Positions 21,031 to 63,709 of a stretch of DNA of 64,000 nucleotides are shown here, in pieces. This stretch comes from Ancylostoma caninum (taxonomy: Eukaryota; Nematoda; Chromadorea; Rhabditida; Ancylostomatidae): contig JBAJFG010000549.1 in the NCBI GenBank assembly GCA_037903475.1, positions 930,001-994,000 on the forward strand, in the 5' to 3' direction. How positions within the stretch are numbered: position 1 is the first letter of the stretch; each line of letters begins with the position of its first letter. Below the pieces are notes generated by a model. It was not told the origin of the DNA, searched no databases, and was given only the letters and a program-made list of their open reading frames with translations. The position numbers and the translations under genes are program-made.

Positions 21031-21224
21031 TCATCGACGCTCACTGCATTTCACATTCCCATGGGCACTTCTTAGATGAATGAGTACATAGTAAGTCAAA
21101 CTACACGCAGAGTTCTTGCTTTTTGCTTATTCATGTTTCCCTGGAGTTCTTGTTCTTTCTTCTTAGTGAGCTCTATAAATAGGTAGAAATACGTGATCCA
21201 TTATATAATTCCTATTCAGCCCAA

Positions 21225-21235
21225 CTGTTTCAGAT
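21225..21235 (+). promoter_or_regulatory. Probable SL trans-splice acceptor of receptor 2
   Basis: CTGTTTCAG ends at 21233, two bases before the ATG at 21236. A 3' splice site this close to a start codon with no upstream exon is the usual sign of spliced-leader trans-splicing in nematodes. Receptor 3 has the same arrangement. Confidence 0.65.
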
Positions 21236-23662
21236 ATGAATACGTCAGCCTTGCAGTGTTTTCTCAGTAATCCTCATCGTATAGACGTCACTGAACGTAT
21301 CCTTGTTGGCGTAGCGCTGCTTATTCTCACAATTATTTCGTTCGTACTCAACGCAACGCTTGGATATCTGGTGTGCAAGCGATCCATATTCGACGAGGTC
21401 TTCCGCTGGCACGTTGTCAGTTTGGTCACAGCTGCTTTGTCGTATCTACTGACAAACTGTGCCATACTGATTCCAACAGCGTTATTTGGCATTCACATCG
21501 ATGACCCGTACAATACGATTCTGACTTCTTTCGATGTGTTTGGCTACTTGGCACAGACGTTCACCACAACTCTGATAGCTATAGATCGGTTTATGTTCTT
21601 TTATTTCATTGGGGTAGGTGACTTCCTGTTTCCTGGGGTCTTCAAGTCTTGTCATTTATTTCTACCACTTTTCATCCATTCTTAATCCTATTTTTCAGAT
21701 CCATTTTGGTGCTACTTCACGACCCTCTCCTCTAGTACGCTCAATTCCTGCATTGCCGTGGATCACATCAATTTTGGTAACAATTCACATGAATTTTGTT
21801 GGATGTTACGCCAGGACTAATCCAGTGACGCTTACCTACACCTACGATTGCAGGTGTGTTTCACAGCTGATTTATTCCTTTTTTTCATTCAGCCAACATA
21901 AATAATGCCTGAACCAACGTGATCCCCATATGTTTCAGCGAATGTGGACTTTATCTACCGGTTATGTACTACCTCAACTATTCGCTCCCTGTGATAACCT
22001 TTATTCTATACTGCGCTATATATATTAATATATTCCTGATGCGACGGCGGTTCAGAACAAGGGAAATTGCTAATGAAAGGAAGAGAGCGGTGAAGCTGGT
22101 GAGCAGCACAACTATTTTTCCTTTATAACAAGACGATTCCGCTTTAATTCACTTTGGGATGAAAAGCAAAGTGGTCAGAGTTCATCCCATTCGTAGAATG
22201 TGCCAGATTCATCACACAATTAGAATATAAGTCGAATAAGTAAATCGAAAAGACATCCAGGTGGTGTACGTGTTCTTCATCTGCATTTCATCCTCCCTGC
22301 TTCTCTTGATACAATTAAACGACCCCAGACTTACTCGGCGAGGTATGGGGATCGAACCTTAGGCCATGAATGCGATGACCTCTTGTCACTGCTCTACTGG
22401 CGTCTTCCAACCACACTACCAAGAAAAATCTGTCCGCAATCGTAAAAGAGTCAAGCAAAGTGTTTCTGGAAAGAGTTTTTTCTCATAGGAGTGAGTAGCT
22501 GACAATGAGCTGTATAAATACGTAGTTTTCCTCAGAATAAAACTTGTCTTCATTCCCAGCTCCCTTCATTTCCGACACCACAACTTGACAATCCTTTATT
22601 AGTGGTCCGAACCGGAAGGAACCAAATAATGTTTTCTTTAGAATATGACAAATTCCCTGCCAAGCCTAGGACTAAAGAAATCCCCTGAAGGAACAATTTT
22701 ACCTTAGACCTCGTGTGCTCATCAGAAAAAGCACATGATGTGTGATAATAGGAATAAGGACATTGCTGAAATGCTACCGGCTCCAAGCTCAGATTGGTTG
22801 TGATAGAATTTATTTTGAGAAAAAAGATTGATTTCTAGAGTCTGATGAAAAAGCGTTGCTTTTTACCGTTTGCTGCATTCTGGAATAATTGTAAATGTCA
22901 ACCTGTGAAAAAGAACTAATAGAATAATATTCCTGAGCCTTGCTCGCATTTTGTACTGCACGCTTTTACCTGCCAGTGAGAAGAATACAAACTGTAGAGG
23001 TGGCGCACGACTTCAGCGGGCAGAAATCCTGCATCAAGCAGGGATTGCTTCTAATTTCTAAGGAATTTTTCTAATTTTTCTTCATATGTATCAATTTTTC
23101 TTTTCTGACCACATTATGCACATTTTACGCAGCGCAAGCCAGAAGTATACGTTTTCGTATATTATAAGCTGCCTCGAGGCAAACACGGAGCATGCCTTAT
23201 GTTATGGTCCAGCCATACCCCGACCGGGTAAGAGAAAAGACCGCCAACATACCTTTTTACCGCACACGGAGCAAGTCAACTGCTGTTAAGTGTGAGAAAA
23301 GAGATTTTCTGGTGATCCAAATTCTAGTAGAAATAACTCTTTGGATTTCCCTGGTTTTTTTTTTTGAAATTCCTGAACCAACACCATTCCAGGTTATGCA
23401 ATGTTCGTTGATATGCGTGATTCAGTTTGCTAGCAGCTCGAGTTTTTATGTTATACCAGCAGTGATGAGCGACACTAAATTATACGTGACGATGCTCATA
23501 TCCACGTTGAACTCTATGACGAATCCATGCGTGATGTTCGCCTTCCAGCCACGACTCCGGAGGGCGATACTCAAACGGAAATATCGCGGCGAAGTGGGTG
23601 ATTGCCGCGTCATAACAGTGAACACCATCTCACCGAAGAGGAGTATCCAGCTCTATGGTTGA
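21236..23662 (+). CDS. Serpentine (7TM) chemoreceptor, complete (paralogue 2 of 3)
   Basis: Four exons join in frame: 21236-21613, 21699-21853, 21939-22098 and 23393-23662, giving 320 aa. All introns have GT donors and TTTCAG- or TTCCAG-type acceptors. Exon 1 encodes the N-terminus and TM1-TM3, ending with IAIDRFMFFYFIG; D117-R118-F119 stands in the place of the DRY motif. Exon 2 encodes TM4 and exon 3 TM5 plus a basic third loop (RRRFRTREIANERKRAVKL). Exon 4 encodes TM6-TM7 with NSMTNPCVMFAFQPRLRRAI, an NPxxY-like motif followed by a basic tail. Cysteines in the second extracellular loop (GCYARTNP...YDCSECG) could pair with TM3. It belongs to a nematode serpentine receptor family whose class I cannot name with certainty; sensory signalling is inferred. 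An AATAAA lies at 23695. Confidence 0.9.
22335..22410 (-). other. tRNA-like segment, probably SINE-derived
   Basis: On the minus strand the segment reads GTAGAGCAGTGAC (A-box-like) and, about 26 bases further on, GGTTCGATCCC (a good B box). Flanks and stems do not fold into a complete tRNA that I can verify, so a tRNA-derived SINE or tRNA relic is more likely. It sits in the last intron of receptor 2. Confidence 0.4.
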
Positions 23663-27662: not shown

Positions 27663-28267
27663 GTTTATTTGTACTACAATACCGCCCATAATTTTTGCGA
27701 AAAAATCGGGTGGCGACGGATTAATCGTTAACAAACCGTCGCATTACTGTAACTCCTTTTAAAGTGAAGCTTTTCTAAATCTGAGCACATTTTCGGATTC
27801 CTCATCGAAATTGGAATTGAACAGTATATAAGATTACTTGAACTTTGACTTCAAAACATTTGTTTTTTCAAAAAGTTGACAAATTTTCGAAATTTCAACA
27901 ATCAGGTCAGAATCTGAAAAAACGTTAAAAACCGAGAATTGAGCGAAATCCAATGATCGTGTTCAGAAGCCCCATTCCTCAATGATTTTCTCATTTTTTG
28001 ATGTTTTTTCAGATTTTGACGTGATTGCTGAAATTTTGAAAATGTTTTAAATTTCTGAAAAAACAAATGTTTTGAAGTCAAAGTTCAAGTAATTTTATAT
28101 ACTATTCAATTCCAATTTCGATGAGGAATTCGAAAATGTGCTCAGATTTAGAAAACCTTCATTTTCAAAAGCGTTACAGTACTGCGACGGTTTGTTGACG
28201 ATTAATCCGTCGCCACCCGATTTTTTCGCAAAAATTATGGGCGATATTGTAGGTTGTGTACAAATGA
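27663..28267. mobile_element. Foldback (long inverted repeat) element
   Basis: Two arms of roughly 250-280 bp are inverted copies. The left arm begins near ACAATACCGCCCATAATTTT and the right arm ends near AAAATTATGGGCGATATTGT. Both include CGGGTGGCGACGGATTAATC in opposite orientation, a TCAAAACATTTGTTTTTTCA segment, and a centre near 27963. There is no open frame of note. This looks like a foldback-type MITE whose transcript would form a long hairpin. Confidence 0.85.
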
Positions 28268-35900: not shown

Positions 35901-37420
35901 CGAGACTCTTACGTATTTTGTTTTGCGTATACTCGTCCTCTAATAGGAAAAAAATTCTAAGATAAAAAGATCCCATAATAAATTCCCTCTATCTCATTCA
36001 CATTTCCCACGGGCTTCGGGCGGACCGTAAATTCGTTTCTCACTACCACTGCGCTCTTTTTTCGGTGGATGCTTTTTTTTGCGCGATTTTTTGATGTGTT
36101 TATTCTTTTCTGTCACTGTTGGGAGCAGCATTGGCACAGTTGACAGATAAGTAAATATTTATGGATGCCAAAGAGCTCGAATAGCTTCTACGTAGTGAAA
36201 TTAGGACCAATCTATAATCGTTGCGCCCGTGAGTTTGCCGGAAATTCCGGGAAGAAATTAATCTTCCGTCATGAATAGATTTGATTGCAAGGGTAGCAAC
36301 GCTAGATTAAAACCCTTGCGAGATCACCACGATTAACTCGAAAGCGGCATATGCGACTATTTTTTATGCATGCAACCTTGCAAGCCTATTTTCTTACGTT
36401 ACTCTTCTGAGGCAAGTGAATGAGTATAAACTCACTAGGGATTCTGTGGTGAGATACGGGGAACTAACAAAATTATGTATTTGGGGCTAGAAATTTCTCG
36501 AAAATTTTTCTTAATACATCATGTCTGTGATTCGGTTCAAGGTCTTTTTTTCCAAAATTTCATCGAGTAGTTGCAGTTATACTATGACTTTCTGGTTATT
36601 TCTTGTTTTTTTTTCAATATGGTTCATTTTTCTTGTTTTCTCCTTTTGGATCTTCATGGCTCCATCGCTTTTTATCTGTTTTCGCAGATATTACTCGCTT
36701 GAATCACTATTTCACGGTTGGAGGGTATAGTGACGCCATCATAGAAAGCTCGTCCAGACATGGTCCTTAGAACCGAGTATGTATCTCCCGTAGGTGGACT
36801 GCTATGGTGTGCACTAACTCTCAGGATTACTTCATGAAATAGGTTGAAATTCTGTATTAACCTTTTAGTTCCTTACTCCTGTTACCACCTGCTAAATGTT
36901 TACTTTTAATTGGGCAAACTTAAAACTGAATCTCCAACAAATTTATGTTAGAATTCTAGCCAGCCTGATCCCAAATTAGAGAAGACCCCTGTTTTTCTTG
37001 ACATCTATATCTTCACGTCTATGTCCAACCCCAGGGGATCTGGAATATCCTGGGATTGGACACAGAAGTGAATTCGTATCTATTAAGGAATATTTCTGGG
37101 ATATTGTACTATTCTATGTATATCATGCTATTCCGCCACATGGTAAGGTGGGACGTAAATATCATAGTAGGCTCCTATTTAAACTAGTACTTTACTATAA
37201 TACTGTATTAGGGTACTATATTGTAGTTTTCGAATTTTTAGCCATTTTCCTTAATAGCTCCCTCTTCTATTCTCCTCATTCTGTTCTTTACTCATTCAAT
37301 ACCTCTACAATGCTCAGGTTAAGTCGAATGTGTGGCGTATCCCAGGAACGGGGTTCATTCAAGCCAACACTTTATTCTCCATTTAATTCCCTAAAGATTT
37401 AATTTTTTAATTATTATTTT
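32912..37420. other. Gene-free intergenic DNA upstream of receptor 3
   Basis: No supported exon was found over 4.5 kb. Several T-runs occur (for example 35170-35180 and 36070-36080), and diverged tandem units of about 60 bp around TTCACTACTACAGTAAC lie at 35520-35660. The frame at 36998-37402 lies just upstream of receptor 3 but does not splice to it and has no domain. Confidence 0.45.
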
Positions 37421-37421
37421 T

Positions 37422-37437
37422 CTCTATCTTTTCAGGC
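37422..37437 (+). promoter_or_regulatory. Probable SL trans-splice acceptor of receptor 3
   Basis: TATCTTTTCAG ends at 37435, two bases before the ATG at 37438, exactly as in receptor 2. The preceding T-rich tract is a strong polypyrimidine run. Confidence 0.65.
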
Positions 37438-40400
37438 ATGAACGGGTCCGTCCTTCAATGTTTCTGGAACAGTCATCCTCCTCCTATGGCCACCAGCGAA
37501 CGTGTTGCGGTTGGTGTCGCACTGCTTATCCTCACAGTTGCTTCGTTTATACTCAACGCGGCGCTGGGATATCTCGTCTGGAAGAGTTCAGTTTTTGACG
37601 GACTCTTCCGTCTCCATGTCGTCAGTCTAGTCACAGCCGCTTTGTCATATATGCTGACAAACTGTAGTATATTAATTCCAACAGCCTTATTTCACGTTTA
37701 TTTCAATGATCCATACAACACAATCCTCACTGTTTTCGATGTGGTTGGATATCTGGCGCAAATATTCACAACTACGCTCATAGCCGTGGATCGTTTCGTG
37801 TTATTTTATATCATAGGTGTAAGCCATGTTTTTCACCTTCCAGGACCTTTACAACTCAAATTTCAATATTACTTTTCCTCATTTCATGATGTTTTCACTT
37901 CTCAGGTCCATCACAGCGTTGTTCATCGCCGCCACCCTCTTGTGTATTGCATTCCTGCTCTACCCTGGACCGCATCGATTCTGCTGACCATCCACACTAA
38001 TTTGATAGGATGTTACGTCAGAACAAATCCGTTCACACTAACTTACACCTACGAATGCAGGTGAACTTAGCAGTGACTCTTTTTTTCCCAAAGTAATCAA
38101 TTTTATAACGAAATAAATGCCAGTCCGCTTCAGTGAATGTGGTCTTTATGGGCCCATACTGTATTACCTCAACCACGCGCTTCCTATAATTACCTTTATT
38201 CTGTATTGCGCCATTTATGCTAATATATTGATAACACGACAACGACTTAGAAGTCGAGAGAATTCCCGTGAGAGAAAAAAGGCTGTGAAGTTGGTGAGTG
38301 ATATCTATATCTGTTTTTAGAAATTCTTAACTCCCATCTCCCTCACTGAAAATTAACACAAAGAAAGAAATATGGGAAAGAGCCGATAGCGAGCCTCGTG
38401 TGACACTTTCTGATAGAACAAAAAACGCTCATAGGGAGGCTACCCGTCCCCTCCATGGATGGCTTTCCATCAATGGAATGAGAAAAAGGCAACCTAAGGT
38501 AATCTCCAGAGTGAGAGGACCATCACTAAGATTTGGAAGCTAACTCCTTCTAGAAAAGTGGTGTACAACCTATTATGGAACTTGCCACACCTACTGATGG
38601 AGGTCTGACTAAACTACAGATAAAAACAGATTTGTCTGTGCTCTACATAGTCTAAGATACCTTAGCTGAGAACTATGCGGAGAGGGACTGAAAAAAAAAC
38701 TAAGATACAGCTCACAAACCGTCATACTGGTTCCTACTCGCACCATCCAAGGAATAATAGAGGAAATGTCAAAACATAGGATTACAGGGCCCAGTATATG
38801 TTCCCTGACATAAAATTTTGATTTGACATTCCTGCATCGTCAATGGGTCGCGACGCCCAATGGGGATAGAATTCGGTTCTTCCACTCCAGGTACTTCATC
38901 CATCTGATATCCCTAGAATTAACGAGACAGGAGCGCCAGGCTACGGAGGCGAAACCACTTCTTACCCTGAGCAGAGAGCTGCTCCCCAATTTTTTGGAAA
39001 AGGTTTAGCCGTCATACGTACCGTTTCTAAACTCTATAGAATTGCCTTATCTTTCAGAGCTCCCACTGCTTTATTTTTTGACTGAAATCGCCTTCAAACA
39101 CATGGCGGGAATGTCGGGAAACTTGGCAGGGTTTCTGAAGGCTAGTCAAAATCCCAAAACTGGTTAATTTGGACATCAGTCGTAATATCTCTGCATTCTT
39201 TCTAACTCACTTCATTATAATGAAAATCGCTTCGATTGCATTGTTTTTACATGAGATATAAGGGCAATTTATACTAGCTGCGTGCGTCAGTCGCGCATCA
39301 GTCGCACGCATCCATTTGTAAGGGATTTTCCATGAAGACCGGTCAACGCGGCATGTACATCCTCAATGAAAAGAACGTGCGGCCGTCGCGAGGCAGTAAA
39401 CGCGTGCGTCTGAGCTGCGACTGCGATGCGACTGCTATGCGACTGGGCCCTATTCTTCATCATATAGACGCACGCGCGTCAGTCGCACGCACCCAGTATA
39501 AATTGACCTATAGAGAGAAGTTTTTTGTCCAAGAACATAGGCCGCACCCTGTAGAGAGTAGATGTAAAGATGGCTCACCCTGCGTAGTCAAAATCATGTC
39601 TGAAATTTGCGGATGCGGATGATATTCGGACTTTTCCCGCCAGCGATCCTTATCGAGACTACTTACAAATAACTCGAAAAGACTACTATTGAGACCTTTC
39701 CTATCCTCGAACAGAACCTCGGGAAGTAGAGGTGAGAAGAGCTTGGATTATTGCCCTGGGCTGTTATCCGTCACTGGTTTACACTGAGTAGTCATGTTGC
39801 TCGCTAGTTCACCTATTACTTACTATGTATTAATCAAAATAGACACTCAAAAACTTGTATGTATTCTTCCTGAGTCTCTGTCCAAGGATAGAAGAGGTCT
39901 CATTATGTAGTAATCCGTCGGAATCATTTGTAAGTAGTCTCAATAAGGATAGCGGGCTGGAAAGTCCGCATACATACAAATTTAAGAAAAATACACGCTC
40001 AACTGCTCTAGACCTGGCTCAAGATGCATCACTGAGATGTCAACGTGTAGCCTTCAGAATTGCCTTCACAATTTATTGACCTTACCACATTTACTCTAGG
40101 AAATCTCAACGATGCATGCTGGCCCTCTGTCCACAATTTCAACCTCAAATTAAGAGGCAGATAACAAAAATCACGGGAACCTTGAACATAAACACTTTAC
40201 CGCAGGCACCACAGCTATAGATGGTAAGCAACCAAGCCAGCAACGGTTTTTCAAAATATTTTCCTCGCAGAATGCAAGTGTGTCGTTAATTTTGTCTAAA
40301 TTTTCCCCAAATTTCCTGAACAACCATCATTTCAGGTGATTCAGTGCTCCTTGATATGTGCGCTTCAATTCATCAGCATTGGCAGTTTCTATTTGTTACC

Positions 40401-40608
40401 AGCAGTTATGAACAACAACAAACTCTACCTGACGATGCTCATATCAACGCTGAACTCCATGGCGAACCCGTGTGTGATGTTCGGGCTACAGCCACGACTT
40501 CGAACGGCGCTGCTCAAGCTGCACCACCTTCGGGTCAGCAAGGCTGGTGGAAACACAGTACCCGATAGCCGCGTAGTGGCGGTGAATCCGTTACCCAAAA
40601 CAGCCTAG
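37438..40608 (+). CDS. Serpentine (7TM) chemoreceptor, complete (paralogue 3 of 3)
   Basis: Four exons join in frame: 37438-37818, 37906-38060, 38134-38293 and 40336-40608, giving 322 aa. Exons 2 and 3 have exactly the same lengths (155 and 160 nt) and phases as in receptor 2. The first intron (37819-37905, 87 nt) has no stop in frame, so retention would insert 29 residues; the GTAAGC donor, the acceptor and the paralogues argue for splicing. Visible motifs are LIAVDRFVLFYIIG at the TM3 end (D118-R119-F120), a basic third loop (RQRLRSRENSRERKKAVKL), and N276-P277 in NSMANPCVMFGLQPRLRTAL in TM7. It is a close paralogue of receptor 2 and likely a sensory-neuron membrane receptor; ligand and class are unknown. 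An AATAAA lies at 40805. Confidence 0.9.
39262..39508. mobile_element. MITE with GC-rich inverted termini, in receptor 3 intron
   Basis: The left end GGGCAATTTATACTAGCTGC and the right end, inverted GGTCAATTTATACTGGGTGC, form terminal inverted repeats. They continue into CGTGCGTCAGTCGCGC-type sequence rich in GCGACTG/CAGTCGC units. ATA-like duplications flank both ends. It is about 247 bp, with no coding capacity. Confidence 0.7.
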
Positions 40609-49369: not shown

Positions 49370-50149
49370 AGTCGAAGATCAACACCGAAGTGGAATGAAA
49401 ATTAAACTGCGCTTTTTCCGTTTTGTTTCAAAGACCCATTTATTTCTTGAATTTGGTATTTATCCCTGAGTACTCTTAAAGCTGTTCGACACCAACCATT
49501 TGTCAAACTTGGGTTCTTTTGTGGGTCAATTTGATATTTCCATCCAATCCGAATACTGTTCAATATTTACCCTTGGAAAGGCGGTGTTTTAAAGCAGTCA
49601 GAGGCGTCCCTAAGTGACTAAAATCTTTACAAGAATCACCCTCCTACTCATTAAGTAACAAAGTTCTGTACGTCATAAGAACGAGGAAAGTTCTGATGTA
49701 CATTTCAGAAAATTTCCAGGGCACCATGTCACGTATTCTTTTTAAACCTGTCTTCCTTCCACAATGTTCTTGAAGTATTCTCGGAATCAATTAAAAATTA
49801 AAAATTATTCAACACCTCGAAGGCTGTTTCAACATCAAAACGTTGTAGTTACGAACGTGATGATAAAATTTCGGAAATTATTAGTCACATTTTTCCGCAA
49901 CCTTCACTTAAATGTTATTTCCCTTAGAAGAACTCCTCATAGGATTCAAAAGCTCAAACTACCGGCGAGCAAAAACTCAGTTATCTGAACCATCTTCTAA
50001 AGGTCAGCGGCAAATTGCTCTTCCGTCCAACTTACCTATCACGGAAAACAATGTAAAGTTGTGTCAATCAGTTAGTCACATCAGCAACGAGTAGTATTCG
50101 GTAACAATTTTCTCACTTGAAGAAGGTAAGTATTTTATATTCCTTGCAG
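49370..50149. other. Gene-free intergenic DNA
   Basis: Nothing supported beyond short random frames. Confidence 0.4.
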
Positions 50150-51185
50150 CAGAGCCAACCTGTATTTGCTTGAAAATGTGCATGCGCTGACCACTGGTTG
50201 ACATCTACAAAGACTATGTGAAATTAGTTCAACAGTGATCCTCTATGGGTGTTACTGTCACCCTGGCTCCTTGTATCGGCTCTATCTAAAAGGGAGGGAT
50301 GCCCCTGATGGTTCTATAAGTTGAGCAACAAATGTTCGGTTTCAACGCAGCTTATTGCTCGCTCGCAGCTCCGAAATATTCGGGCTTGTTGCCGTGCTGT
50401 CATTCGTGCACATCACGGAAAATAAGTTTTGGAATTTGCTCTGTCTCGAGGAGGAGGATACCTTAAGGATCCCATAAATGGTGAAGATTCTCCAGGGTTC
50501 CTAGAATGTTACTGTGTGCGTGGCGACTCATGGCGCCTTGGATTTATCGAAACAGGGCTACTCGAAGTGAAGAGTGCTGGTCACTAGCAGGAGCATGTGT
50601 GGCCCCTTGATCCATCTACGAGTTGTCTCCCTTCGCCTAGTGCCTTTCGATTTAAAAATGTCTCGTTCAGTTTGTTCCTTCTAATTCATAGTGAATTAGC
50701 CAGTTTTTATAGCGCCAGGTCACAGTATCCCGCTTCGGTGATGTTTCGTAGAGTTCATTGCATTTTAGCAAAACCTAACTTATCGAATCCAAGGCGACAT
50801 GAGTCGTCATGAGCATGGTAATATTCTAGGAATCCTGGAGCATCTTTACCACTCATGGGATCGCTGAGGCATCTTCCTTCTCGAGACAGAAAAAAATTCA
50901 AAATTTATTTTCCGTGATGTGCACAATTGGTTGCGTTACAATTAGCCGGGATATTTTTAAATTCCGAAAAAGCAATGAAATGTATCAAATCCTAGCACCT
51001 GTAACTAAACGATTAGAACCATTAGCAGCATCTACTCCTTTCAAACAAACCTGATAGAGGGGGCCAGAGAGGCAAAAACATCCACAAAGCATCACTGTTG
51101 AACTAACTTCACATAGTCTTCGCGAATGTCAGCCAGTAGGCACCACGTGCACATTTCCCAACAAATACGAGTTGATTCTTATGCA
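50150..51185. mobile_element. Large foldback element, about 1 kb
   Basis: The sequence is a nearly end-to-end imperfect inverted repeat. The outer arm AAAGACTATGTGAAATTAGT (about 50211) pairs with inverted GAAGACTATGTGAAGTTAGT (about 51115). The middle arm around CATCACGGAAAATAAGTTTT (about 50412) pairs with AAAATTTATTTTCCGTGATG (about 50903). The inner arm GACTCATGGCGCCTTGGATT (about 50526) pairs with AATCCAAGGCGACATGAGTC (about 50787). Arms are about 450-500 bp and visibly diverged. I found no transposase and no clear target duplication. The outer arms both read DYVKLVQQ then a stop in one frame, so an inverted duplication of a gene tail is an alternative. Confidence 0.75.
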
Positions 51186-51445
51186 AGCAATCAATTTGGA
51201 GCCCGATCCCATCAATAGACGATTTTTTAAAAGACTTTGCGCATGGTGCCAAATTACAGATTTCGACCTCTGCGAGAAAAAAATTTCTTAAAAAACACAG
51301 AATCGGCGGGGTGAGGAGGTTCTAACTTCCTCCTATCTCGCATGAGTATCTACAGTTCTCATAGAAATTTGAGCCTTCATGCTCTGCTTTGAAAGAAGTT
51401 ATAGATGAAAAACTAAAAGTTGCAATCTTTTTGCTCGCTACTGTA
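51186..51445. other. Gene-free intergenic DNA
   Basis: No supported feature. Confidence 0.45.
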
Positions 51446-55800: not shown

Positions 55801-58800
55801 GTCTATGGACTTTTACCTCAGCGAGGTAGTAGTTTGCTCAAGCTTAGTTATCTACCTATTCATTGTCTTTTATATTGTCTTCAAGGTGAGTATAAAGCAT
55901 TGGCTTATTTGTAATTTCTATTCGGGGCGGCAAATGGCCAAAGTGCCGCGTTGTCGTATTTTCATCGAATTTATTTTAATATAATATATTATATATATAT
56001 ATTATTTTATTATATATATTTTAATATATAATATTTTAATTTATAATATTTTCCATCTGGGTCCCAAAAGTGGCGGAGGCTCCATTTTTTCAACACGCCT
56101 CTATCCCTCCCACCCTATTTCTGCGTCCGCCCTGAATGCTACCGAAGGAGCCAAAATCGATTCAAACCGAGATGGTTGCAGCTGTAGAATTTTTTAATGT
56201 CTATTATGGATTTCAGCGTAAACTGAACGGATCCACTCGAGCGGAACTTCCTTTATTACTGCACTCCTTCCAGTTTTTCATGTTTTCTGGTGTTATGCTG
56301 TATTTCTGGTGTAATCCAATCTCAACTACTCCACTCTATACCCACATATTCAACGTGCTCGTAGTAATTCGATTCGGCTTCGCTCCAGTATCATTACTGT
56401 TAATAAACAAGTGAGTCATGCTAGCTCGTTCAACCAGTGGTACAGGAACTGCAGTCCACCAAGTCGCGACAAGCTTTGATAGGAGAGCGAGAGAGCAGGT
56501 GTGGGTACGGGGTGCGGGAGACTCAGGATGCCGCGCAGCAGGGCAGTGCTCTGCGTCGTGCGGGCCTCGACAGTTGAAGTTGCTTTGTGGAAGTAAGAAA
56601 AAACAAACCTAAAGGCACTATTCAACTTTACTGGCCTCAAAATCTTCAAAAGATTTTTTTTCGCCGAAGCTTTCTATAGGGGGGGAGAGTTATTTGAGGT
56701 GCTGAACACGAATATTGTATCCATTTTGGGTACTATTCTACTTCAGACTATGTATATCTGTATATATAAAAGTGAAAGTTTGTTTGTGTGTTTGTGTGTG
56801 TGTTTGTGTGTGTGTGTGTGTTTGTGTGTTCCGAATAGAAATCGCGGAGGATGAACCGATCGGGACCAAATTTTGCAGGTAGGTTCTTTGGGGGCCGGCG
56901 GAGGTTATAGGCTACTTTTCACTCGAGACTATCGATTGGCCTATCGATTATATCGATTTTATTGATTTTTCGCCATATCTTTTCATTATGTCACGGGGAC
57001 ATGTCTACTGGGGTTTTCCAATATGCTGAGCACGAAAATGGCAACCATTTTGAAAGATATTATCGATTTATTGATTTTATTGATTTTTGTACACTACTGC
57101 TCAGGGATCGGCGAGGACATGCCCACAGGGGTTTTCTGATATGCTGAACACAAATATGGCGTTAATTCAAGCGTATACCATTTATTTTATCCTTTCCGAA
57201 TGATTCCCCTCTCACACCTACAGTTTTGATTGACGTACGGCGCAGCAGCACCGAGCGAGTGAGGGGGCGCTGGTTTAATTACCCAAGTTTGAGGTACTTT
57301 TTGCACGAGCGTGTTCGTCCTGCTAGAGGCTGGACGTACTGCGGCGGGAGCCCGATGCACCGGCGGAATTAGACGCGCCAGCGCAGCACGGCGCACCAGC
57401 GGCGACGCTGCCGCGGCAATGGTGCGGAGCACTAGCTGTGTCGGCAGCCTATATATAGGCCGTCGTGCTGGGACGCCCCGCCCCCAGTGGGCGGGGCATG
57501 TCCCTGCGATAGTGCATAAATACTGGCGAGAATCCGCGCACTTTGCGTTCTGTGAAAACTTGCCTCGGCACGTTTTCTGCGCTCAAACCTTCCAAGCCCT
57601 AAAAGCTACGTGTGCTTAAGTGAAAGTAAGTTGTAATTTCAGCCAAAATGCCCCCTAAGAAGCGAGCTTCTCTAAGTAGGGTGGACCAAAAGGCGAAGCA
57701 AATGAGAGAATCACGAGCTGCGGAAACAACAGAGCAGCGGGATGCTCGACTTCAGCAAAACCGATTAAGAATGGCTGAGTCGAGGGCCGCTGAAACATCC
57801 CAGCAGCGCGATTCCAGGCTCGAAGAACAACGAGGAAGAACTGCTGAATTGAGAGCTATCGAAACACCCGGGCAGCGTAGCACCAGGCTCGAGGAAAACC
57901 GGCTAAGAATGGTTGAGTCGAGGGCCGCTGAAACATCCGAACAGCGTGACACCAGACTCGAGGAAAACCGAATAAGAATGGCCGAGTCGAGGACCACTGA
58001 AACATCCGAAGAGCGCGGTATCAGGCTCGAGGAAAATCGGCTAAGAATGGCCGAGTCGAGGGCCGCTGAAACACCAGAACAGCGCGATTCCAGGCTCGAA
58101 GAACAACGAGAAAGGACTGCTGAATTGAGAGCTATTGAAACACCCGGACAGCGTGGCACCAGACTCGAGGAAAATCGGCTAAGAATGGCTGAGTCGAGGG
58201 CCGCTGAAACATCCGAACAGCGTGACACCAGACTCGAGGAAAACCGACTAAGAATGGCCGAGTCGAGGACCACTGAAACATCCGAAGAGCGCGATATCAG
58301 GCTCGAGGAAAATCGGCTAAGAATGGCCGAGTCGAGGGCCGCTGAAACACCCGAACAGCGCGATTCCAGGCTCGAAGAACAACGAGAAAGGACTGCTGAA
58401 TTGAGAGCTATTGAAACACCCGGGCAGCGTGACCACTCGAGGACTAAGAATGGCGAGGGCCACTGAAACATCCGAAGAGCGCGATATCAGGCTCGAGGAA
58501 AATCGGAATGGCCGAGTTGAGGGCCACTGAAACATCTGAACGGCGCACTCCAGGCTCGAGAACATGCTGCGTCGAGAGCTGCTGAAACACCTAGGCAGCG
58601 TGACTCGAGGACAACCGACTGAGAATGGCGGAGACAGAGATGCTGAGACATCCGATCAGCACGGATCCAGGCTCGAAGAACAACGCCAGAGAACTGCCGC
58701 AACGAGGGCTGCTGAATCACGTCAGCAACGCGAAAATCGACTCCAGAACGAACGCGTGCAACGCCAAAATTCAAGACAAGCGTCCAGGCGAGCTGACTTA

Positions 58801-61800
58801 CGGTTGGCGGCGTTCCGATACGATTCCAGTTACAATTACCGAGAACATCCAAAGGTTGTAATTGGGAAAATGGATGTCATCTGCCCTCATTGCCAGGCGA
58901 GGAAGTTCAGAGGTGAACCTCCTGGAATGTGCTGCTCAGGAGGAAAGGTTAAGCTACCTCCTCTAAACCCTCCACCCGAACCTCTCCGTTCATACATGTC
59001 TGGAACTACGGTGGAATCGAAACATTTTCTGCAAAACATAAGAAAATACAACTCCTGTTTCCAGATGACGTCCTTTGGTACAACTGCAACTGTCCAGGAA
59101 CCCGGTTTTATGCCCACCTTCAAAGTGAGGGGGCAGATTTACCATAGAGTTGGGTCCCTTCTTCCCCTTCCCAACGAGAATCCAAGATTCCTCCAGATCT
59201 ATTTCACGGGCGATGAAGAGCAGCAAGCTGATCAACGTTGTGAAAATATCGGCGGCACAAGAAGGAACATTGTCCTGGATCTGCAGAGGATGTTCCACCA
59301 GCATAACAATTTGGTGAGATTGTTCAAGACATCACTGGAAAGGATGCCAACAGACGAATATAAGGTCGTCATCCGAGCTGACAAGAGACCAACGGGCGAG
59401 CATGAGCGTCGTTTCAACGCGCCTACCGTGAACGAAGTTGCAGTAGTGATAGTTGGTGAAGACGTCGATAGGCGCGACATAATCATCCAGAAACGGAACG
59501 ACTCATTGCAACGTATTTCGGAGACACACCGATCATACGACGCTCTTCAGTATCCAGTGATATTTTGGGAAGGTGAAGATGGGTACCACTTTAATCTCAA
59601 ACAAACTGATCCTAGGACAGGCAGTCTAACCAACAAAAAAATTTCGGCTAAAGACTTCTATGCAAGCCGAATTATGATAAGAGACGGGTCATCAAACCAC
59701 CTATTAAAATGCCGTCAACTTTTCCACCAATTCATTGTCGACATGTATGCCAAAATAGAGAGTGAGCGCCTTCTCTACATCCGCCTCAACCAGAGAAAGC
59801 TGAGAGTAGATGATTACATTCACCTGCGGGACGCTGTAGCGAATGATGGCAATTCCACGGATGTTGGGCGGTTGGTCATTTTACCAGCGACGTTCACAGG
59901 TAGTCCACGACACATGCACGAATACGCCCAAGATGCGATGCTATATGTTCGCACCTGTGGACGTCCCGACCTATTCATAACGTTTACGTGCAATCCGGAA
60001 TGGACTGAAATCAAAGAAGAACTCCTGGAAAGCCAAGCACCATCTGATCGCCATGATTTGATCGCGAGGGTTTTTAAACAAAAACTCACGAAGTTTATGG
60101 ATGTTATTACGAAGAGTCATATTTACGGAGAAACTCGATGTTGGCTATATTCTGTCGAGTGGCAGAAAAGAGGTCTCCCTCACGCCCACATTCTAATATG
60201 GCTTAAGGATAAGATCCATCCGACTCAAATCGACAGCGTTATTTCCGCTGAGATTCCGAATCCAGACCAAGATCCTGGACTTTTCGAAATAATCACCAAG
60301 AACATGATTCATGGACCATGCGGTCCACTGAATCCCAACTCCCCCTGTATGAAGGATAGAAAATGTACGAAAAAATATCCGCGAGAGTTCATACAGGAAA
60401 CCCAGACCGGAAATGACGGCTATCCTCTGTATAGAAGGAGAAGGCCAGAAGAAGGAGGATATACTGCGATTGTGAAAGTGAGGATGAACAATCAGCAGAC
60501 AGAAATTGAGGTGGACAATAGGTGGGTGGTGCCTTACAGTCCTTTGCTTTCGAAAATGTTTGAGGCCCACATCAACGTTGAATACTGCAACTCAGTGAAG
60601 TCCATCAAGTACATCTGCAAATACGTCAACAAAGGCAGCGATATGGCAGTCTTTCGATTAGAAAATGAAAACGGTGCCCTTGATGAGATCATGCAGTATT
60701 TGATGGGGCGATACGCAAGCACCAACGAAGGAGTGTGGCACATTCTATCTTTTTCAATTCACGAACGTTATCCACCTGTTGTGCATCTCAGTGTTCACCT
60801 GGAAAATGGACAGCGGGTTTACTTCACTGCTGATAACGCAGAGGAAAGAGCAGCAAATCCTCCTAATACAACACTGACGGCATTTTTCCTTTTATGCCAG
60901 CAAGACGCATTTGCTAGAACCCTTCTATATCCAGAGGTGCCAAAGTATTACACTTGGAACGCATCGAGGAAAGTGTTTTGTAAGAGGAAACAAGGTGCTG
61001 CTGTTCCAGGTAGCGACATGCGTGCAAGTGATGCCTTAGGACGGGTCTACACAGTTCATCCGAACAATGACGAGTGCTACTACCTGAGACTATTACTTCA
61101 CACAGTTCGGGGACCAACTTCATTCACAGACCTGAAAACTGTGGATGGCGAAGTCTGCGAAACTTACAGGGAAGCATGTCAAAGGCGTGGCCTGCTTGAG
61201 AACGACCAACATTGGGACACCACGTTGGCTGAAGCATGTCAGACCTGCTTCCCTTCTCAATTGCGGACTCTATTTGCAATCATAATAACAAGTTGTGCTC
61301 CCTCGAACCCGCAAAGTCTCTGGGAGAAGTATAAAGAAAGTCTCAGCGAGGATATTCTTAGGGAGCAGCGTAGAACTAATCCCGAAGTGAACTTTTGCGC
61401 TGAGATTTTCAATCAAGCTCTTATTCTGCTTGAAGATAAGTGTATATCCATCAGCAGTAAGACGCTCTCGGAACTTGGCCTGCACGGACCATCCCGCACT
61501 GGAGCTGAATTAGTGCAGAGCGAAGTTCTGCGAGAAAGGAACTACAATGCTGAAGAGTTGGAAAGATTCGTCCAAACGAATGAGCCTCTCTTAGTTCCTG
61601 ACCAGAGGTTAGCCTACGAAGCAATCATGGATATGATAAGGAATGGAAATGGTGGACTCTTTTTCCTGGATGCACCAGGAGGGACAGGAAAGACATTCCT
61701 TATTAATCTTCTGCTCGCCGAAATTCGGAGACAGAACGAAATCGCTGTAGCAGTTGCTTCGTCTGGCATTGCAGCCACACTATTAGATGGAGGTCGGACT

Positions 61801-63709
61801 GCACATTCAGCATTGAAGTTGCCTTTGGATCTTGCACGTTCTGAAAATCCAGTTTGTAATATAAGCAAAGGCTCTGGAAAAGCTCAAGTACTGAAAACGT
61901 GCAAGGTTATTGTGTGGGATGAGTGCACCATGGCGCATAAGAGAGCTCTTGAAGCACTTGATCGAACTTTGCAGGACATAAGAGAAAATAATCGCCTTAT
62001 GGGTGGAGCTGTTTTAGTTCTTGCGGGCGACTTTCGCCAAACCCTGCCTGTTATTCCGCGAGCAACACCAGCGGACGAACTTAACGCATGTCTCAAAGCT
62101 TCGTATCTTTGGAGGCATGTTCGAAAAATGACATTGACCACAAATATGAGAGTTCATCTGCAGGGCGATTTGAGTGCGCAGAGCTTTGCTCAACAACTAC
62201 TGCGCCTTGGTGACGGCGACTTCCCTGTGGATCCAGACACTGACTTGATCTCCTTCCCATCCGACTTCTGTAACTTGACGGAATCACCTGAAGAATTGAT
62301 AGTCAAAGTCTTTCCAGACATTACTAACAACTTCAGGAACCATCAATGGCTTTGCGATAGAGCGATTTTGGCTCCCATGAATGACGGCGTGAACAAAATC
62401 AACACCGAGATCCAGAACCAACTTCCAGGTCCAGCGGCAACGTACGAGTCCATCGACACTGTTGTAGATAGGGAACAAGCTGTGTGTTACCCTACAGAAT
62501 TCTTGAACTCTCTGGAACCGCCAGGCATGCCACCGCACAGGTTGGTTTTAAAGGTTGGATCACCAATAATGCTGCTTCGTAACATGGACCCACCGAAACT
62601 ATGCAACGGTACAAGGCTTTGCGTTAAAAACCTCATGCCAAACGTAATCGAGGCTACAATATTAACAGGAAAGGCTAAAGGAGAGGATGTCTTCATCCCT
62701 CGCATTCCCATGATACCTACGGACATGCCCTTTGATTTCAAGCGACTGCAGTTTCCTGTGAGACTTGCATTCGCAATAACTATAAACAAAGCTCAAGGGC
62801 AGTCACTCCGGGTAGCAGGCATCAACTTGGAAACCCCCTGTTTCTCGCATGGTCAACTTTACGTTGCATGCTCCAGGGTCGGAACACCGAAGCAGTTATA
62901 CATTTATGCCCCCGATGGCAGAACCAGGAATATTGTTTACCCGAATGCATTGTGTTAGGGTGTTGTATATATTTTTACACCGGTTATATTGCACTGCATG
63001 TAAGTATTGGAGTAGCTAACTTCTAAGTAGAAAAGAGCATTTAAAACCCAAAAAAATTAAAAACTTAGAAAACCAAAAAAAATGAAAAAAAGTAAAAGCA
63101 ACAAAAAACAGAAAAATTGAAAAACCAAAAAAAGGAAAAAAATTAGAAAAACAAAAAAAAAAGAAAAAAGTACAAAAAGAGACAAAAAAAGCCAAGTAAT
63201 TAGAAATGTTTGTATCGTATTCATGTTTATGGGCAAGAAGACAGCCTTTTTTGTTTTTCTATTTGTGTGCACGATGTGTTTATTTAAGAGAATATGCATG
63301 TATGCTTGATCTGTGCTTTTAAATTTACAAACAGTGTTCGTTTGCATTGGTTCACGTGGTTCTAAGTGTTGATTTTCGCCCACATTAAAAAATCGCCGCA
63401 GGTAATGTATCACCCGAGCGAAGCCGGGTAGGGCAGCTAGTACCACTATATACCCAACTATCGATCACAAACTCAAAATCATGGATTTCTCTGAAAACTT
63501 GCATACAAGGGCAAACTTCCATAAAATGTTACTCTGAGAAATGTACATAATGTGACCTCTTCAGGACGATCCGAACTCACTTTTTCCACCTGTCAAGCCA
63601 TTCATCAAATACCGCGTCTATGGTCGGCAAGTGGATTAGACAACCAACGGTGCAGGATGGTGGACAATCTGTATTTGAACCGAGCCATAAGAGTGCTTTT
63701 AAACAGTAA
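52813..63709 (+). CDS. Srg/Srv-type serpentine chemoreceptor with a Helitron in its last intron
   Basis: Seven exons join with consistent phases: 52813-52917, 53307-53456, 54403-54534, 54600-54708, 55770-55885, 56217-56410 and 63565-63709 (316 aa). Motifs are TM1 (FFAVYIVVGSVLGLMN), a short basic loop (IIRRHKSLWKL), TM2, TM3 with YPVIFVLAINRFTAVIMPH (N108-R109-F110-T111, the NRFT block of Srg/Srv receptors), TM4, TM5 (VVVCSSLVIYLFIVFYIVFK), TM6 (LHSFQFFMFSGVMLYFW) and TM7 (FGFAPVSLLLINKTIRTHFF). The TM7 end is encoded across the last intron, and the tail is basic and ends at 63709. Weak points are the acceptor of exon 4 (GTGCTTAAG) and the start codon. AATAAA lies at 63723. The product should be a sensory membrane receptor; the ligand is unknown. 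Intron 6 is 7154 nt because it holds the Helitron. Expression may be reduced, but splice sites are intact. Confidence 0.8.
53127..53228. mobile_element. Short palindromic MITE in receptor intron 1
   Basis: TCATCGTGAGAGGAAAGGGC followed by GTTACCAGGCTATTGTGATTGG is mirrored by CCAATCAGCGTGGACTGGTA and ACGCCTCATTTTCCTTCGCGATGA. The whole 100-bp unit would fold into one hairpin. Confidence 0.7.
53988..54217. mobile_element. MITE family B, copy in receptor intron 2
   Basis: The left end has TGCATTACAGAAAGTCACCC and CTGGTCTGCCGCGCCGC. The right end has inverted counterparts, GGCGCGATAGACCAAATATG and CAGTCTTCTGTGATGAAAA. The same end motifs occur at 20291-20690. Confidence 0.5.
54820..55290. mobile_element. 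Possible GC-rich inverted-repeat element in receptor intron 4
   Basis: CAACCATCGCGCCTGTGAAA at about 54831 is mirrored by TTTCACGTGGCGCGATGGTC at about 55258. The interior contains several GGCGCGA motifs. Limits and family are uncertain. Confidence 0.4.
55979..56052. repeat. AT-only low-complexity tract
   Basis: About 74 bp of almost pure A/T built from TATA, ATAT and TTTTAAT units, in intron 5 of the receptor. Confidence 0.9.
56784..56832. repeat. GT-rich microsatellite at the Helitron 5' end
   Basis: TTTGTGTG units repeat over about 49 bp close to the 5' terminus. Confidence 0.9.
56941..57165. repeat. Diverged tandem repeats in the Helitron 5' region
   Basis: Two units of about 100 bp share ATCGATTT(A)TTGATTTT, then (G)GACATG(T/C)C(T/C)AC(T/A)GGGGTTTTC and ATATGCTGA(G/A)CAC. 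This subterminal repetition may bind the element's own transposase, but that is inference. Confidence 0.7.
57272..57293 (+). other. Perfect 22-nt SL1 spliced-leader sequence inside the Helitron
   Basis: GGTTTAATTACCC...AAGTTTGAG matches the nematode SL1 leader over all 22 bases. It is followed at once by GT (GTACTT), as the leader is followed by a 5' splice site in SL RNA genes. The 4-bp complement AAGT...ACTT brackets the splice point, reminiscent of the first stem-loop of SL RNA. No Sm site (AATTTTTGG-like) is present in the next 100 bases, so this is not a normal SL RNA gene. A T-rich 3' splice site at 57633-57642 could receive this exon in cis. Confidence 0.95.
57447..57522 (+). promoter_or_regulatory. 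Promoter-like region of the Helitron
   Basis: Contains the palindromic TATA-like GCCTATATATAGGC (57447-57460), an inverted pair of GC boxes around GCCCCGCCCCCAGTGGGCGG (57475-57497), and a second TATA-like CATAAATA (57515-57522). The first ORF starts at 57648. Promoter activity is inferred from these elements only. Confidence 0.45.
57633..57642 (+). promoter_or_regulatory. 3' splice site before the Helitron ORF
   Basis: GTAATTTCAG ends at 57642, and CCAAAATG follows. It could be a trans-splice acceptor or the cis acceptor for the embedded SL1 exon (intron 57294-57642). Confidence 0.6.
57648..58466 (+). pseudogene. Helitron N-terminal repeat ORF (frameshifted from RepHel)
   Basis: The frame starts MPPKKRASLSRVDQKAKQMR and continues as charged 23-residue repeats of the type RLEENRLRMAESRAAETSEQ. 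Such R/E-rich repeats precede the zinc-binding part of many Helitron proteins and should be helical. The frame ends at 58466, while the RepHel frame begins at 58564 in another phase. The same repeat motif resumes in the RepHel frame near 58660 (SRLEEQRQRTAATRAAES). The sequence between about 58430 and 58650 is made of the same repeats with small deletions. The two parts were almost certainly one ORF, and the break is due to indels in the repeat or to assembly error. Confidence 0.75.
57806..58433. repeat. 276-bp higher-order tandem repeat in the Helitron ORF
   Basis: The GCGCGATTCCAGGCTCGAAG start recurs at about 57806, 58082 and 58358, exactly 276 bp apart. Each 276-bp unit holds four diverged 69-bp (23-codon) subunits ending in ...TPGQR, ...TSEQR, ...TSEER and ...TPEQR in the same order. 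The third unit is truncated. Confidence 0.9.
58564..62958 (+). CDS. Helitron RepHel protein (HUH replication initiator plus Pif1-like helicase)
   Basis: The frame is 1464 codons. Its first 30 or so residues are out of the original frame; from about residue 32 it carries the repeat tail, then a zinc-type motif (CPHC at 107-110, CC at 123-124). The Rep part has FTCNPEW (474-480), the HUH-type motif PHAHIL (H540, H542) and the two catalytic-type tyrosines in IKYICKY (Y683, Y687). The helicase part has Walker A GGTGKT (1039-1044), Walker B WDE (D1119-E1120), GDFRQTLPV (from 1155), TTNMR, AITINKAQGQS and YVACSR (1433-1438). All catalytic residues I can check are present. The protein nicks, unwinds and transfers the element by rolling-circle replication. 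The true N-terminus probably lies at 57648 in an unbroken copy. Confidence 0.92.
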   Translation: MLRRELLKHLGSVTRGQPTENGGDRDAETSDQHGSRLEEQRQRTAATRAAESRQQRENRLQNERVQRQNSRQASRRADLRLAAFRYDSSYNYREHPKVVIGKMDVICPHCQARKFRGEPPGMCCSGGKVKLPPLNPPPEPLRSYMSGTTVESKHFLQNIRKYNSCFQMTSFGTTATVQEPGFMPTFKVRGQIYHRVGSLLPLPNENPRFLQIYFTGDEEQQADQRCENIGGTRRNIVLDLQRMFHQHNNLVRLFKTSLERMPTDEYKVVIRADKRPTGEHERRFNAPTVNEVAVVIVGEDVDRRDIIIQKRNDSLQRISETHRSYDALQYPVIFWEGEDGYHFNLKQTDPRTGSLTNKKISAKDFYASRIMIRDGSSNHLLKCRQLFHQFIVDMYAKIESERLLYIRLNQRKLRVDDYIHLRDAVANDGNSTDVGRLVILPATFTGSPRHMHEYAQDAMLYVRTCGRPDLFITFTCNPEWTEIKEELLESQAPSDRHDLIARVFKQKLTKFMDVITKSHIYGETRCWLYSVEWQKRGLPHAHILIWLKDKIHPTQIDSVISAEIPNPDQDPGLFEIITKNMIHGPCGPLNPNSPCMKDRKCTKKYPREFIQETQTGNDGYPLYRRRRPEEGGYTAIVKVRMNNQQTEIEVDNRWVVPYSPLLSKMFEAHINVEYCNSVKSIKYICKYVNKGSDMAVFRLENENGALDEIMQYLMGRYASTNEGVWHILSFSIHERYPPVVHLSVHLENGQRVYFTADNAEERAANPPNTTLTAFFLLCQQDAFARTLLYPEVPKYYTWNASRKVFCKRKQGAAVPGSDMRASDALGRVYTVHPNNDECYYLRLLLHTVRGPTSFTDLKTVDGEVCETYREACQRRGLLENDQHWDTTLAEACQTCFPSQLRTLFAIIITSCAPSNPQSLWEKYKESLSEDILREQRRTNPEVNFCAEIFNQALILLEDKCISISSKTLSELGLHGPSRTGAELVQSEVLRERNYNAEELERFVQTNEPLLVPDQRLAYEAIMDMIRNGNGGLFFLDAPGGTGKTFLINLLLAEIRRQNEIAVAVASSGIAATLLDGGRTAHSALKLPLDLARSENPVCNISKGSGKAQVLKTCKVIVWDECTMAHKRALEALDRTLQDIRENNRLMGGAVLVLAGDFRQTLPVIPRATPADELNACLKASYLWRHVRKMTLTTNMRVHLQGDLSAQSFAQQLLRLGDGDFPVDPDTDLISFPSDFCNLTESPEELIVKVFPDITNNFRNHQWLCDRAILAPMNDGVNKINTEIQNQLPGPAATYESIDTVVDREQAVCYPTEFLNSLEPPGMPPHRLVLKVGSPIMLLRNMDPPKLCNGTRLCVKNLMPNVIEATILTGKAKGEDVFIPRIPMIPTDMPFDFKRLQFPVRLAFAITINKAQGQSLRVAGINLETPCFSHGQLYVACSRVGTPKQLYIYAPDGRTRNIVYPNALC
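63046..63192. repeat. A-rich low-complexity tract in the Helitron 3' region
   Basis: Runs of A separated by single G, C or T bases, downstream of the RepHel stop codon. No canonical AATAAA stands out within it. Confidence 0.85.
63412..63440 (+). other. Helitron 3' terminal hairpin and CTAG end
   Basis: ACCCGAGCGAAGCCGGGT forms a short stem (ACCCG/CGGGT), followed by AGGGCAG and the terminal CTAG. This is the termination signal expected for rolling-circle transposition. Confidence 0.9.

Follow-up and report, generated by a model that had tools for sequence, protein, structure and literature searches.

A Helitron in the 64,000-nucleotide stretch of Ancylostoma caninum DNA analysed here (the window) carries, upstream of its open reading frames, a 70-nt block (57232-57301) that probably acts as an snRNA/SL-RNA-type Pol II promoter driving the Rep/helicase gene. 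Because a near-perfect 29-nt start of an SL RNA gene stands behind an snRNA-type motif, the element probably borrows the small-RNA promoter machinery of its host. The features on which the argument depends are as follows.

56757-63440, plus strand: whole Helitron, bounded as A/TCTGTATATATAAAAG ... CTAG/T; the end words recur in other copies
57232-57301, plus strand: conserved block of PSE-like motif, SL1-like box and SL RNA intron start; highest conservation in the 5' region
57232-57245, plus strand: PSE-like site GACGTACGGCGCAG, in which the T of TACGG lies at -36, counted from the SL1 G
57272-57293, plus strand: exact SL1 22-mer, read directly from the sequence
57294-57300, plus strand: GTACTTT, possible 5' splice site, the same as intron nucleotides 1-7 of the array SL1 RNA gene
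57447-57460, no strand assigned: TATA-like palindrome GCCTATATATAGGC; TATATATA in 15 of 22 aligned copies
57475-57497, no strand assigned: GC-rich inverted repeat GCCCCGCCCCCAGTGGGCGGGGC; similar GC-rich stretches in other alignment rows
57515-57522, plus strand: CATAAATA, candidate TATA box for a conventional promoter 3' of SL1; present in 15 of the 22 copies aligned
57637-57642, plus strand: TTTCAG splice acceptor, cis or trans; its AG kept in 19 of 20 copies with a located ATG
57648-58466, plus strand: first ORF, with 69-nt repeats encoding 23-aa STPR domains
58564-62958, plus strand: Rep/helicase ORF (Helitron_like_N, PF14214; PIF1, PF05970)
63412-63440, plus strand: Helitron 3' end, hairpin ACCCG..CGGGT and CTAG

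The ends and flanks of the copies identify the element as a Helitron: it begins with TC, ends with a hairpin and CTRR, and is flanked by A and T. The 5' end word was present in 16 of the 20 copy stretches retrieved, mostly after A, and the 3' end word (hairpin and CTAG, then T) in 10, counts that include some stretches stopping before an end. Flanking sequence differs from copy to copy. The Rep/PIF1 ORF matches the Helraiser chain 7lcc across nearly its entire length (E 2.3e-263), and Ancylostoma proteins, which are among the best BLASTP matches, are 75-90% identical, their best alignments taking in 41-62% of the query. The transposase frame is interrupted in the window copy, in which the frame from 57648 stops at 58466 and the helicase ORF opens at 58564 in another frame; the tandem STPR repeats of 23 amino acids span 57701-58733 and are likewise broken in frame. 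The window also holds long, MITE-like inverted repeats at 27674-28252 (91% complementary) and 50139-51191 (73%), and two similar sets of open frames resembling 7TM receptors (21209-23662 and 37411-40517). The second set matches Ancylostoma receptor proteins; a receptor exon of the window aligns at 80% identity with a protein of A. ceylanicum, and the alignment has a gap of 29 residues, apparently an intron left unspliced.

As an earlier note on this DNA had stated, all 22 bases of SL1 are present and are followed directly by GT (57294-57295). This is the single match to SL1 at three or fewer mismatches in the 64 kb, and 100 shuffles gave none. Genome-wide, the pattern GGTTYAATTACCCAAGTTTGAG was found with at most one mismatch at 813 sites (400 + 413, SL RNA arrays included) and the reversed-pattern control at none; with these two controls, a chance occurrence of SL1 is ruled out. 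The exact 22-mer and the Helitron protein each had no match in viral contigs, and prokaryote genome contigs likewise gave no matches. The worm's own SL1 RNA arrays were located with the Rfam SL1 model below its gathering score; the genes lie in tandem arrays with a unit near 1,056 bp. The array gene (L073, L075) reads SL1 followed by GTACTTTCTAGATC, and a dispersed gene (L074) reads SL1 followed by GTATTTC. Since the array gene and the window copy share SL1 and GTACTTT, the window copy is identical to the array gene over the latter's initial 29 nt, a result that fits the earlier idea of derivation from an SL RNA gene.

The box is a property of the family. A search of the genome (347.9 Mb, 638 contigs) with 57200-57660 gave at least 32 matches, which were grouped into at least 25 Helitron loci, one per contig. 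Of the 25 loci so grouped, 23 have a box within four mismatches of SL1, which rules out insertion of the 22-mer into this one copy only; the box breaks after base 13 at locus C34, and the 5' part is absent at C13. An 84-nt query spanning the block found 23 places in the genome, every one of them a locus of this Helitron family. We aligned 22 copies, omitting C140 (cut by a contig end, with exact SL1) and second matches at a locus already included. Three copies have no mismatch to SL1, nine have one, five have two, four have three and one has four. Box base 5 is C in 15 copies and T in seven, and each remaining position agrees in at least 20. The refuting test that the earlier note had proposed, whether other copies lack SL1 or carry it mutated, was thus largely passed: the box is kept at nearly all loci, though exact SL1 occurs in just 3 of the 22 aligned copies. 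The leader is therefore not identical to SL1 across the family and, with base 5 mostly C, the family is not bound to the exact sequence.

The 29-nt segment that runs from the first G of SL1 (57272) to intron position +7 is the most conserved in the region, ranking first of 481, with an identity of 0.890 against a median of 0.688 and a best value outside the block of 0.82, figures in which the box is somewhat favoured because alignment rows were selected for a box with four or fewer mismatches, by which C34 and C13 were lost.

Upstream of the box, the block contains a motif that recurs upstream of U1, U2 and array SL1 RNA genes of this species. We retrieved 17 upstream sequences from 27 U1 matches and dropped one divergent sequence (L109), leaving 16; for U2, 12 were retrieved from 46 matches. 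Fourteen of the 16 U1 upstreams carry TACGG[AC]GC at -43, the other two being without the core, and a TACG or TGCG core stands at -44 or -45 in all 12 retrieved U2 upstreams. The array SL1 gene carries GTACGACACA, whose T is at -45. Together, 14 of 16 U1 upstreams, 12 of 12 U2 upstreams and the array SL1 gene share the core RTRCGRHNC between -43 and -45, and from its place we infer that this motif is the nematode PSE. When the window was scored with a U1 matrix, the Helitron site ranked first of 127,974 positions (16.8 bits, the next being 13.1), and it ranked first again with a matrix built from U1, U2 and SL1. With a matrix built from U2 alone it ranked second in fixed register and 222nd in a misregistered run. 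The best-scoring site lies at -36 in 19 of the 22 aligned copies and at -30 in one that has a 6-nt deletion; in the remaining two (L016, L021) it lies elsewhere. Scored with the U1 matrix, the array SL1 gene reaches no more than 5.3, at a different place, and the dispersed gene (contig C638) has no site above 1.1 bits.

These results most strengthen the earlier suggestion that SL1 is part of a promoter, an idea for which Hannon and colleagues are said to have provided a precedent in 1990 with internal-promoter work in Ascaris. Among the points against it is the spacing: the motif lies at -36, 7-9 nt nearer to the presumed start than it does in the U1, U2 and array SL1 genes analysed, so the start could fall about 7-9 nt inside SL1. 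As we picture it, the 29 nt that open the SL1 RNA gene would serve as an initiator region behind the PSE-like site, and the block would recruit host snRNA/SL-gene factors. Transcription would begin at, or close to, the first G of SL1 and drive the Rep/helicase gene.

An RNA that began at SL1 would carry the SL RNA 5' splice site, GAG/GTACTTT, and could be spliced in cis to 57642, so that the mRNA would have an SL1-like leader at its 5' end. The earlier account of the acceptor is correct, with TTTCAG followed by CCAAA and the ATG at 57648; its description of that ATG as the first is right for the spliced RNA, but an unspliced RNA from 57272 would contain ATGs at 57355, 57419 and 57498. Both putative splice sites are kept in the family. 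The three bases after the box are G in 21, T in 21 and A in all 22 aligned copies. Of the 20 copies in which the ATG was located, 19 have an AG 5 nt ahead of it, so that the acceptor is conserved. The SL1 donor and this acceptor make the proposed cis-splice possible. Conservation of the GT need not reflect use as a donor, since GTACT also follows SL1 in a foldback element (described below); splicing of an encoded leader to the ORF is compatible with the sequence, and we regard it as a somewhat doubtful step.

The same mRNA start can be reached by two routes, by SL1 and cis-splicing or by CATAAATA and trans-splicing, and the second leads to the principal rival explanation. Transcription would then start at an ordinary promoter marked by CATAAATA (57515), a leader of about 95 nt would serve as an outron, SL1 would be trans-spliced at 57642, and the block would be an enhancer or a second promoter. 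The recurrence of CATAAATA among the copies, the conserved stretch that follows it in them and the conserved acceptor all suit this explanation, and a start past 57522 would bypass the three upstream ATGs. It leaves unexplained, however, why conservation in the region peaks in the segment from the SL1 G onward and why the PSE-like site matches as well as it does, and we consider it rather unlikely. Since base 5 of the box is C in most copies, the two routes could be distinguished in reads.

The block might instead produce a short, SL-like or snRNA-like non-coding RNA, a decoy or a trans-splicing donor of its own, separate from the ORF. Promoters of the snRNA type usually give short RNAs, and the PSE-like site with the SL RNA start speaks for such a product. 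At 57272 an SL1 exon is followed by a 5' splice site, as in an SL1 RNA gene, but the body with the Sm site is missing: Rfam SL1 (RF00198) had no match at its gathering score in the window and none at E ≤ 1 in 56900-57800, and an SL RNA gene at this site was rejected on the absence of that match. Conservation of the block fades by 57301-57302, which indicates that the Sm site and stem-loops of the SL RNA were apparently not kept. A short RNA from the block is accordingly very unlikely. A Pol III B-box was also considered as a reading of the box; the T run 3' of it is poorly kept past 57300.

Comparisons between pairs of copies bear on whether the block is a functionless relic left by a single capture of part of an SL RNA gene, or of an SL1 cDNA, and inherited by descent. 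The GTACTTT shared with the SL1 gene speaks for such a relic, and among the 11 closest pairs (divergence at 4-fold sites below 0.05) the box is not specially kept, differing by 0.083 compared with 0.030 for the 5'UTR and 0.035 for 57185-57231. The divergent copies tell otherwise. There are 34 pairs with 4-fold divergence of 0.30-0.50 (mean 0.414), not independent of one another because sequences recur among them. These pairs differ by 0.098 in the box, by 0.103 in the 8 nt after it and by 0.075 at codon positions 1 and 2. The upstream part of the block differs by 0.205, the 5'UTR by 0.354, the TATA region by 0.441 and the remaining "intron" by 0.525. Copies that differ at 41% of 4-fold sites and at 10% of box positions make a relic highly improbable. 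Least probable of all is a binding target of the Helitron's own protein or a transposition signal: the box is conserved in cis, the first ORF has 23-aa STPR repeats and such repeats bind DNA in other proteins, but the box lies 515 bp from the Helitron 5' end, and its identity to SL1 and the intron start, together with the PSE-like site, would have to be coincidence.

SL1 also occurs at many other places in the genome. In a chosen sample of 44 sites, drawn from the first places listed, GT follows SL1 in 25 and GTAC in 11, and the contexts are pairs of LTRs, a foldback element, SL RNA arrays and what look like retrocopies. The foldback element is about 1.45 kb long (L052:607-2057) and is inserted in Helitron copy C119; each arm has two inward-facing SL1-like boxes about 215 bp from one another, making four in all, and GTACT follows every one of them. 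The context of these boxes recurs at C8, C10 and C40 (L076, L077, L080), and the spacing in the match list suggests further foldback elements on C14, C23, C29, C39, C46, C66 and C74. LTR-like copies (L053, L054, L110, L111, L112, L081) form same-strand pairs 8-10 kb apart, for example L053 and L054, which are 96% alike across 330 bp and 10.1 kb apart. SL1 in such copies often stands close after an A/T-rich, ATAAA-like stretch with GT behind it, and some copies have what by eye are tRNA-Gly-like primer sites; here SL1 may represent the R region used for strand transfer. At five sites (L056, L060, L070, L086, L091) SL1 is fused to what resembles transcript sequence and the upstream sequences are unrelated; these look like retrocopies of SL1 messages. 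A repeat family (L061/L067/L072/L084) has the form ..GGCTGTCAC(C/T)+SL1+GTACCTACATACAC. The best motif scores beyond the Helitron were 8.8 and 9.7 at -31, in L083 and L092. A coding role for the SL1-like box in the repeats L058, L068, L083 and L092 was rejected, with stops in the frames and no Pfam match for two short peptides.

A broader reading, which we offer tentatively from sequence comparisons, is that the transposon makes its leader in cis by way of host snRNA/SL factors and cis-splicing, and that unrelated elements (Helitron, LTR and foldback) may use the SL1 start as a portable promoter. If the promoter reading is true, a selfish element has taken over the promoter of the class of genes from which many nematode messages receive their leaders, and Helitron expression would be tied to the factors of snRNA and SL genes. 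Two ideas become testable, that SL1 sequence is a promoter element in living worms and that an encoded leader can replace trans-splicing. A caution also follows: SL1-bearing reads from hookworm transposons need not stem from trans-splicing.

Genomic SL1 was reportedly described in Onchocerca by Zeng and colleagues in 1990. SL1 beside LTR elements is already known from Brugia, and our search of the open-access literature did not find SL1 within a Helitron. Among known systems, Helraiser/Helitron1 has the same Rep/PIF1 protein, TC...CTAG ends, hairpin and A and T flanks, whereas the window element adds a PSE-like site and an SL1-gene start upstream of the ORF. To our knowledge, Helitrons have no RNA stage. 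Among nematode SL1 RNA genes, the array gene shares its initial 29 nt with the window copy and has a PSE-like core upstream too; in contrast, no SL RNA body or Sm site was detected in the Helitron, its PSE-like site is 9 nt closer and the block leads into a long ORF.

In Brugia malayi, 316 genomic SL1 signatures include 120 outside SL RNA genes, of which 60 lie within 1 kb of PAO retrotransposons; those at PAO elements were read as leaders of expressed elements that were integrated along with them (PMC7181701). There too the SL1 22-mer is part of, or next to, mobile DNA at a distance from SL RNA arrays (PMC7181701). In the hookworm Helitron, unlike there, the start of the SL RNA intron is included. 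The Tm1-A MULE of root-knot nematodes, likewise a DNA transposon, has an SL1 acceptor predicted ahead of its ATG; unlike the Helitron, it has the acceptor alone, an encoded SL1 not being described in the available part of that report (PMC3169594). In Cer1 of C. elegans, SL1 is present on a spliced mRNA of the element and is described as the product of trans-splicing (PMC3315495).
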